DNA from: Melieria omissa
Taxonomy: Eukaryota; Arthropoda; Insecta; Diptera; Ulidiidae
Length of the DNA stretch: 64,000 nucleotides
Direction of reading: 5' to 3'
Assembly (NCBI GenBank): GCA_963971225.1
Contig: OZ020269.1
Location: 15,560,421 to 15,624,420 of the forward strand
Positions 39,228-42,410 of this stretch are shown here, piece by piece. A program made the position numbers and the translations under genes. The notes beneath the pieces were generated by a model. The model was given only the letters and a program-made list of their open reading frames with translations. It searched no databases and had not been told where the DNA came from. Within the stretch, counting starts at the first letter, position 1, and each line of letters starts with the position of its first letter.

Positions 39228-39894
39228 TATGTTGTTGCATTTTCAATTGAACATCCGATTTGTGAGCATTTCTATTGATATTATAATCAATTTTAAAAAT
39301 TTATTTATCTATTTCTACAAATTTCATTCATTCATTTCTAAAAATTTCATTCATTTGCTGCAATCAACCAATTAAAAAATTTTCAAAATAAAATAATGAA
39401 CTTAAATTATGTTGTTGAATTTATCATTTAAAACTTGCAGATTTCCGAGCATCTTTATTGATACTACAGTCAATTCAAAAAATTCATTTATTATTTTATA
39501 AAAATTTCATACAATTGCTCCAACTGCGATCCACCAAATAAAAAATTTTTTTTAGTTAAATTTGTTGTTGCATTTTCCACTAAACACTCAGATTTGTTAG
39601 CATATTGATAGATTTTCATTATAATCAATTCTAAATTTTTTTTATTTATTTCTAAAATTTGCAGTCCTATTCTGCAACTGCAATCAATACACTGGTTAAC
39701 AAAACTTTAACTTTTTTTTGTCACATGAAAACTTATATCGAATTTTGAATGTACTAGGGCCACTAAAAAATAATATGTGAATGAAAAAAAATTGACACGT
39801 CAGGTTTCCTTGTGACATCAAAACATATATTCTCTTAAAAAGGACAAACATCAGCTACATTTAGAGAAATTATTGCTTAATATAGAAAAAATAC

Positions 39895-41433
39895 TTATGA
39901 TTTTCGTGAATATTTGGCTTCTGGAAGGTCTTTTTTAAGTCTCCTACAAAAATCTTCTAGCATTCCTGCGCTCCATTTCCCTTGATAGCGCTTCTCCATT
40001 AAGGAAATCTCCTGATGGAACCTCTCGCCTTGTTCGTCACTCACAGCACCCAAATGTGCGGGAAATAAATCCAGATAAGAGTCCAGCATATGTATTTTTA
40101 AGGACATATTACACCCCAAAGCTTGATATGACATTATAAGTTCATTTATTAAGTCTTTGTAATTTTCCGATTTATGGTTTCCTAGAAAATTTTGGACAAC
40201 GTTCACAAAACATTTCCAGGCGAGTTTTTCCTGATCATTCAGGTTTTCTTCAAAGCTCGTATACATTATCAGTTGCCGTATTTGTGAACCTACAAATATT
40301 CCCTCTTTAATTTTTGCCTCGCTGAGTTTAGGGAATTCCTCTTTAAGATAAACAAATCTCTAGGTATAGCTTTTACAAAATTTTTTATCAGGCCGAGCTT
40401 TATGTGCAATGGTGGTAAAAGAATGTCATCAGTGCTCACTAAAGGATCATTTTTAACATTTTTTTGGCTTGGAGTGAGTGATCCACCCTTGGACCACACT
40501 TTCTGTTTATAGTGATTTTTTCTTTCCCTACTGTCCCATTCGCAAATGAAACAGCAAAATTTTGTCCAAGCAGAAGTGCAATGACTTTAAAATCGCCACA
40601 AATTTTCCAAGCGTGTTTACTATATTCAATTTTTTCAAGAAGAAATCTCATATTTTCGTAAGTCTCTTTCATATCAGAACCACGAGCAACCGGCACTGAA
40701 GGAAGTTTATTCCCGTTTTGCAGCAACACTGCTTTCAAACTAGTTTTTGAGGAGTCAATGAAAAATCGCCAGTGATTTGGATCATATTCAATCAATAGAC
40801 TAAATCACGTGCTTTAGAAAAGTAAAGTCTTATTTCATCGTCACAATGTCGAATATAAGAAATTTTCGTATCAGGAGAAAGTAAATTCCAGTCGTTTAAT
40901 CTATACCCCAAAAGCTCAGCCTGTTTTTTAGACAGATTCAAATCACGTACTACATCGTTTAAATCACTTTGTGTCAATAAGTGCGGTTCTTTTGAAGTTG
41001 ACGGTTCATAACGTGGGTCACTATCTTCAGATACTTCCGGAGAAGAATCCTGATTTTCTGATCGATTTGGAGGCTTTGGCACATGCAGTTCGGCACTGGG
41101 CACTGGGTCTGTTGGCCGAAGACAAGTTTGGATACTAGGTAGTGTGTTTGTATTTGGTTGTAATGCCTTTTGTTTGGTTCGGTCCAAATCATTAGTAAAG
41201 CAAATGGCATATGTCTGGGTTCTTGTTTAGCCCAACCTAATAGCAGTCTCACACAAATGACAGAACATTTATGTGGAACCCAGGATTTATCTTGATTCCT
41301 CACAGGAAATCCAAAATAGTCTCAAAAAGCACTGTTCAATTAAGGACGTGTAATTTCGACGCTGAGATTTAAAAGTTAATTCTCCACACACATAACAAAA
41401 ACTGTCGGGGTCGTTAGAACACTTTCGTGGCAT
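39895..41433 (-). pseudogene. Decayed gene of a multi-copy uncharacterised arthropod family
   Basis: Starts at ATG 41433 (MPRKCSNDPDSFCYVCGELT) and ends at 39895 (...EAKYSRKS); about 513 codons including breaks. N-terminus: a Cys-rich module, CSNDPDSFCYVCGEL then HKCSVICVRLL. Middle: HLLTQSDLNDVVRDLNLSKK, then HWRFFIDSSKTSLKAVLLQN and WKICGDFKVIALLLGQ, then a Cys motif FCCFICEWDSRER in a shifted frame, and LLPPLHIKLGLIKNFVKA. C-terminus: GAVSDEQGERFHQEI and MEKRYQGKW. Frame breaks lie near 41300, 41190, 40550 and 40340, so it is dead. From memory, highly similar uncharacterised proteins occur in many copies in arthropod genomes. Function unknown; Asp/Asp/Glu spacing hints at an RNase H-fold transposase. 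Confidence 0.75.
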
Positions 41434-41549
41434 GTTTACGATGTAACAAACGTATATATGATGTTACTTAGTCGAATGCAAAGTTATATAATCGTATAAA
41501 TGAAGTTATTCAAAAAAAAAGACACGTATATAAGGTCCGAAATGAATAT

Positions 41550-41996
41550 TGTTACGAATACTAGTTCTAGTGGGCTGCTACGTATCACTGGATTGTGTAA
41601 TTTGAAAATGAAACAACTTTAATTATTCCAACGCAACCAATTCAAAACCAACAGTCACTTTATTATTCACATTTTTACACTTTACTGTTCGTACACTTAA
41701 GTATTTGCTTAATTACTCCGTGTGGCAACTTCACTTGCCAAAACCAGACTGACTCGCTGCGCCGCATCCGGCTGCCTTTTATACCTGTCAGGCCATCGCG
41801 CAGATCGTTCCCGCACATTCCGGAGTGGACTAAAAGTTTCCATCATTGCCAGGTTGGACTAAAAGTTATTATCGCGGCCGTCTTTGCCAGATTGGACTAA
41901 AAGTTGTTATCGCGGCCGTCGTTGCCAGATTGGATTATAGCATGGCACGTAGCGGCAGGGTTGCTTTGCACAGCGACAGACTGCCTTATCGTTACA
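41550..41996 (-). mobile_element. Solo LTR nested in the transposon
   Basis: 447 bp beginning TGTAACG and ending CGTAACA when read on the minus strand, flanked by ATAT on both sides (41546-41549, 41997-42000). In that orientation it has TATAAAAGGCAGCC (41783-41770) and AATAAAG (41664-41658), i.e. promoter and polyadenylation parts of an LTR. A unit containing TTGGACTAAAAGTTrTTATC and CGCGGCCGTCkTTGCCAG is tandemly repeated near its start. The 4-bp duplication suggests the Ty3/gypsy group. Confidence 0.85.
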
Positions 41997-42410
41997 ATAT
42001 GTAGCTGTCACAAAAAAACTGAACGTGATTGAAACAAAATTATTAGATATTGTTAATGAGGGTACATCAACAAAACCAAAAATCGTCAAAAAGTTCGTGT
42101 GACAAAAACAGTGTTTACCAGTGTAATCAATTACACAAATTTTTGAAATAAAATTTGAAACTTAAACTATTTTGTTGCATTTTTTATTGAATACTTTTAG
42201 ATTTTTTAGTATTTCTATTGATATCATAGACAACTCTTGAAATTCATTTCTAAAATTTTCATTCATTTGCTGCAACTGTCATCAACCAACTTCAAAAATT
42301 AGTTTCATAAAATATTCAACTTAGGTTGAATATTTGAACAACGCATTTCTAAAATGTTTCATTCATCTGCTGCAACCAGCCATCGACTAATGTCAAAAAT
42401 AAAAAAAAAA

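Follow-up and report, generated by a model that had tools for sequence, protein, structure and literature searches.

Transposons of the Chapaev type are described with CAC/GTG termini and target-site duplications of 3 to 4 bp, and CACTA and Chapaev have been put in one CMC group (PMC4079192). The Chapaev3 elements examined in that report all carry TWA duplications lying between an A and a T, which empty sites confirm, and one of them, Garfield_BM, measures 2,289 bp and encodes a 556-aa transposase with the motifs C(2)C, LH and H(4)H (PMC4079192). In addition, a second report places Transib, TransibSU, Chapaev and Chapaev3 together and mentions a zinc-finger "Chapa" domain in Chapaev3 (PMC4411706), and a third includes in its tables Chapaev3-1_CV and Chapaev3-2_CV, two Chapaev3 elements of the blow fly Calliphora vicina (PMC3630058). 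Here we analyzed a 64,000-nucleotide stretch of the Melieria omissa genome (contig OZ020269.1; G000:C3:15560421-15624420), hereafter the window, in which a first-pass annotation had proposed a new DNA transposon; genome-wide searches covered the 490-Mb assembly (164 contigs). The element lies at 39690..42123, with its gene on the minus strand, and is almost certainly a decayed Chapaev3 cut-and-paste DNA transposon (CMC / Transib-RAG1 group), because its CAC/GTG ends, A-TWA-T target and protein motifs match the published group. The data obtained here on which this assignment rests are the ends, the duplications, the empty-site comparisons, the motifs, the copy number and the predicted fold of a relative. 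Each defining feature of Chapaev3 that could be decided was found in the family.

We looked for other copies in the genome with a 154-aa piece of the window protein, which matched 151 places at E <= 0.001 (the best 150 of 718 first-look candidates were scored); 10 open frames of 568-598 codons without a stop are among the matches listed for this piece. Many related copies are present, some of them with intact frames. We took 20 places with their flanks (7 of group A and 13 of group B), plus shorter loci from the 13-mer and protein searches. Group A is the window's own group, with 79-88% protein identity over the matched parts, and group B, about 57% identical to the window protein, has an intact 571-aa frame in L046 and was counted together with shortened relatives having the same tips; group D is about 52% identical to the window protein. 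Tips are CACTGGTTAACA and CACTGGTAAACA in group A, with single-base variants in some copies, CACTGATCAACAG and CACAGGGCAACAA in group B, and CACAGCCACACAA at both ends in group D.

In the window copy the left terminus, CACTGGTTAACA, occupies 39690..39701 (plus strand), its tip being identical in L008, L039, L043 and L044, and the right terminus, the inverted CACTGGTAAACA, occupies 42112..42123 (minus strand), with a tip identical in L041, L043, L044 and L045. The inverted ACACTGGTwAACA-type ends of the first-pass annotation are real, as is its second matched block, TTTTTGTCACATGAA at 39715-39729 (plus) facing the inverted TTTTTGTCACACGAA at 42094-42108 (minus), but its limits of 39689..42124 need trimming, the true span running 2,434 bp, nested solo long terminal repeat (LTR) included, from CAC at 39690 to GTG at 42123, as in homologous copies with the same ends. 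The 13-mer occurs without mismatch only twice in the window, as ACACTGGTTAACA at 39689-39701 (plus) and ACACTGGTAAACA at 42112-42124 (minus). Allowing 2 mismatches gave 4 matches in the window against 3.58 expected, so that only the exact pair is informative. Genome-wide, the 13-mer by itself was not enriched (31 matches versus 54 for the reversed control pattern); the evidence on the ends is the spaced pairs with homologous interiors, not the 13-mer alone.

Ends were examined at 36 loci (9 in A, 21 in B and 6 in D), giving 20 independent insertions with both ends readable. Results showed that in 18/20 pairs an identical 3-bp duplication, TAA or TTA, lies on both sides outside CAC...GTG, and an A precedes the left duplication in 18/19 pairs. 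Shuffling the right flanks among copies gave p = 3e-5 pooled and 0.005 within groups. The target duplication of Transib is 5 bp. Twelve loci with one end found were kept out of the 20 pairs (L039, L040, L041, L050, L056, L025, L026, L027, L028, L030, L031 and L036), and in 12/12 of them ATWA precedes the end. Also left out were L011 and L032 (no end found), L053 (facing same tips), L055 (the L046 insertion in a duplicated block), L029, and L002-L007, which are 13-mer matches without a homologous interior; L001, L009, L010 and L012-L024 share sequence with loci that had been counted or examined before. Of L002-L007 and L029, only L006 later proved to have a spaced end pair, and it stays outside the 20 pairs.

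The two exceptions to the 3-bp duplication are L042 and the window copy itself. On its right side, the flank comparison places the duplication TAA at 42124..42126, followed by T, and on its left side ATA stands at 39687..39689, where group A copies have TAA; comparison with L008, L043, L044 and L045 suggests a TAA duplication minus one A. Indeed, group A copies with the duplication read ATAA immediately before CAC, whereas the window reads AATA, and the simplest reading is that one A was probably lost at this edge, which would leave AATCAAT on both sides. The heptamer noticed in the first-pass annotation is there, but as a target-site duplication it does not hold: the edges of the other copies had been expected to show 7-bp duplications, and this register occurs in 1/19 pairs, the window alone. 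We read the AATCAAT repeat as a chance match beside the probable one-base loss, the real duplication being 3 bp. A single decayed copy can mislead about the length of a target duplication.

Empty-site comparisons also bear on this length. When the flanks of L048 are joined and one TWA is retained, they match a paralogous stretch in L041 at 75% identity, and the alignment crosses the junction without a gap. The group B element at L051:1750-5556 interrupts the reading frame of another Chapaev3-like transposase gene. Since frame continuity cannot separate 0 from 3 removed bases, this site was tested with one and with two TWA copies: the joined peptide with one TWA runs gapless across the junction to 21/40 relatives, and with both TWA kept to 0/40. 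The joined flanks of L057 form an open frame, and by itself this is compatible with the removal of either 0 or 3 bases. As judged from these alignments, the L048 and L051 junctions fit 3 bp. For L044, searching the genome for its site without the insertion gave just its own two flanks. The tandem repeat around the window copy, taken by the first-pass annotation to show the pre-insertion site, has a 72% match to the joined flanks, with gaps close to the junction, and is too diverged to decide the duplication length.

The original proposal was that of a new superfamily of DNA transposons, having ACACTGGT ends and a target duplication of 7 bp, its termini fitting no superfamily that could be named. 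The presence of AATCAAT at both ends of the window copy speaks for it, but we give it very little credence, considering that the 7-bp repeat is confined to one of 19 pairs, that 18/20 pairs show the 3-bp TWA duplication, that the L048 and L051 comparisons fit 3 bp, and that ends, target and motifs agree with the Chapaev3 group, CAC/GTG ends with an A-TWA-T target being the published Chapaev3 signature (PMC4079192). The superfamily is already known.

Moreover, the protein bears the marks of this group. We counted motifs and domains in an alignment of 40 full-length relatives and found C332-x2-C335, H381 and H489-x4-H494 invariant in 40/40, and L380 is also listed as invariant; in the window copy C(2)C and LH are present. 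As regards the N-terminal zinc-finger Chapa domain, Cys pairs at 13/16, 57/60 and 93/96 are conserved in 36-39 of the 40, and this Cys-rich part is probably zinc-binding. The predicted fold of one relative relates the catalytic core to that of Transib/RAG1. The suggestion that the multi-copy uncharacterised arthropod proteins are transposon-encoded is borne out by the 151 genomic matches and by the Chapaev motifs of the 40 relatives; these proteins are the Chapaev3 transposase. Among viral contigs, 40 stretches fit a pattern, and 0 were confirmed as relatives.

That the element belongs to CACTA/EnSpm, whose outline its CACTG ends and 3-bp duplication would fit, is scarcely credible, as 18/18 duplications are TWA with an A before in 18/19 left flanks and a T after in 16/19 right flanks, the set of C(2)C, LH and H(4)H agrees with the published Chapaev description, and no CACTA model is among the 12 Pfam families matched at E <= 1 by the 40 relatives, this last a weak point in that animal EnSpm may escape such models.

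Several observations weigh against the Chapaev3 assignment. The comparison was with published descriptions, not with Repbase protein sequences. The T after the right duplication is present in only 16/19 pairs; L042 has no 3-bp duplication and an altered right tip, and the window copy, with ATA left and TAA right, has no exact one either. In the window protein a Tyr replaces the second His of H(4)H, and more than one Glu may be the third catalytic residue of the DDE core. Foldseek alone gave no match at E <= 0.001. No Pfam-A model passed the cut-off on the window pieces, nor on the 40 relatives, where none of the 12 families was matched by more than 2/40. For this reason, automatic annotation has left members of the family without a name.

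With Chapaev3 as the preferred reading, the single gene would have encoded a DDE transposase of roughly 560-570 residues with a RAG1/Transib-like catalytic core. The intact enzyme is expected to bind CACTG-type ends and to cut the element out, and insertion at A-TWA-T targets with a 3-bp stagger would create the TWA duplications outside CAC...GTG. The window copy would then have decayed, probably losing one base at its left edge, acquiring several frame breaks and gaining a solo LTR, in an order that we can only infer. The one gene announced for the unit is now a transposase pseudogene at 39895..41434 on the minus strand, recognized by its homologs and broken into pieces over all three minus frames. 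The nested LTR was also correctly recognized: it is a 447-bp solo LTR (TGTTACG...CGTTACA) at 41550..41996 with ATAT on each side, and its removal leaves a unit of about 2.0 kb. By eye, a stretch resembling this LTR adjoins the L052 insertion.

The other groups differ in layout. The group B element in L046 is 3,830 bp, and the other flank-extracted group B loci (L055 left out) match it at 97.5-99.2% identity in their main aligned blocks. Elements of group D measure about 2,065 bp, and their inverted ends extend over about 265 bp. Inverted arms of about 740 bp lie inside the element in L046 (L046:2850-6679) and in other group B loci (L047-L058); those of L046 are about 99% identical, and the outermost 19 and 29 bases of L046 differ between its two ends. 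This combination of homogenised arms and distinct tips suggests conversion within the element and selection for asymmetric tips. L046 and L055 (G000:C4:5480600-5489000 and 5387100-5395600) are 99.6% identical over 8.4 kb, flanks included, and represent a segmental duplication, not two insertions. Another group B copy has its 5' tip twice, at L053:2931 and L053:6657, the two facing each other, and its flanks show no matching duplication. The 742-bp interval L006:771-1512 is bounded by CACTGGTCAACA / CACTGGTAAACA ends and has TAA on both sides and an interior unlike the window element; it is probably a short non-autonomous relative.

We also considered a common origin of the Chapaev3 N-terminal cysteine domain and of ZAD, the domain present in the ZAD zinc-finger transcription factors of insects, an idea that we regard as improbable. 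Pfam zf-AD matched weakly in 2/40 full proteins (best E 0.0017) and in 2/10 N-termini (E 1.1e-4 and 0.0027), the best score of 22.9 bits being under the 28-bit cut-off; these weak matches cover residues 13-69 of the transposase relatives P0237 and P0239. Neither a profile of 15 N-termini nor one N-terminus alone found a ZAD chain in the PDB at E <= 10, and none of the 12 titles listed by a literature search concerned a link between the two domains. If true, a very large family of insect regulators would have obtained a domain from Chapaev3 transposons, or supplied one to them.

These results give a name and a mechanism to many animal proteins deposited as "uncharacterized" or "hypothetical" and without Pfam domains; the named matches are mostly from arthropods, with also a leech and a frog. 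Chapaev3-type transposase proteins belong among repeats, not host genes. In comparison with known systems, the family resembles the published Chapaev3 elements Merrow, Garfield and Conan in its CAC/GTG ends, A-TWA-T target and C(2)C, LH and H(4)H motifs (Zhang et al. 2014, PMC4079192). Its size is similar to that stated there for Garfield_BM (2,289 bp and 556 aa there; here L046 has 571 aa, the window copy minus its LTR measures about 2.0 kb, and group D about 2,065 bp), whereas group B, with its length of 3,830 bp and its internal inverted arms (about 740 bp), is unlike Merrow, Garfield and Conan as these are described. Chapaev3 transposons are distantly related to the RAG1 immune recombinase; identity to the RAG1/Transib core (PDB 6xnx, 6pqx) is 13-14%, and the N-terminal part differs. 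Finally, Chapaev3-1_CV and Chapaev3-2_CV of Calliphora vicina are alike, going by their table entries and not their sequence, in being Chapaev3 elements of a fly.
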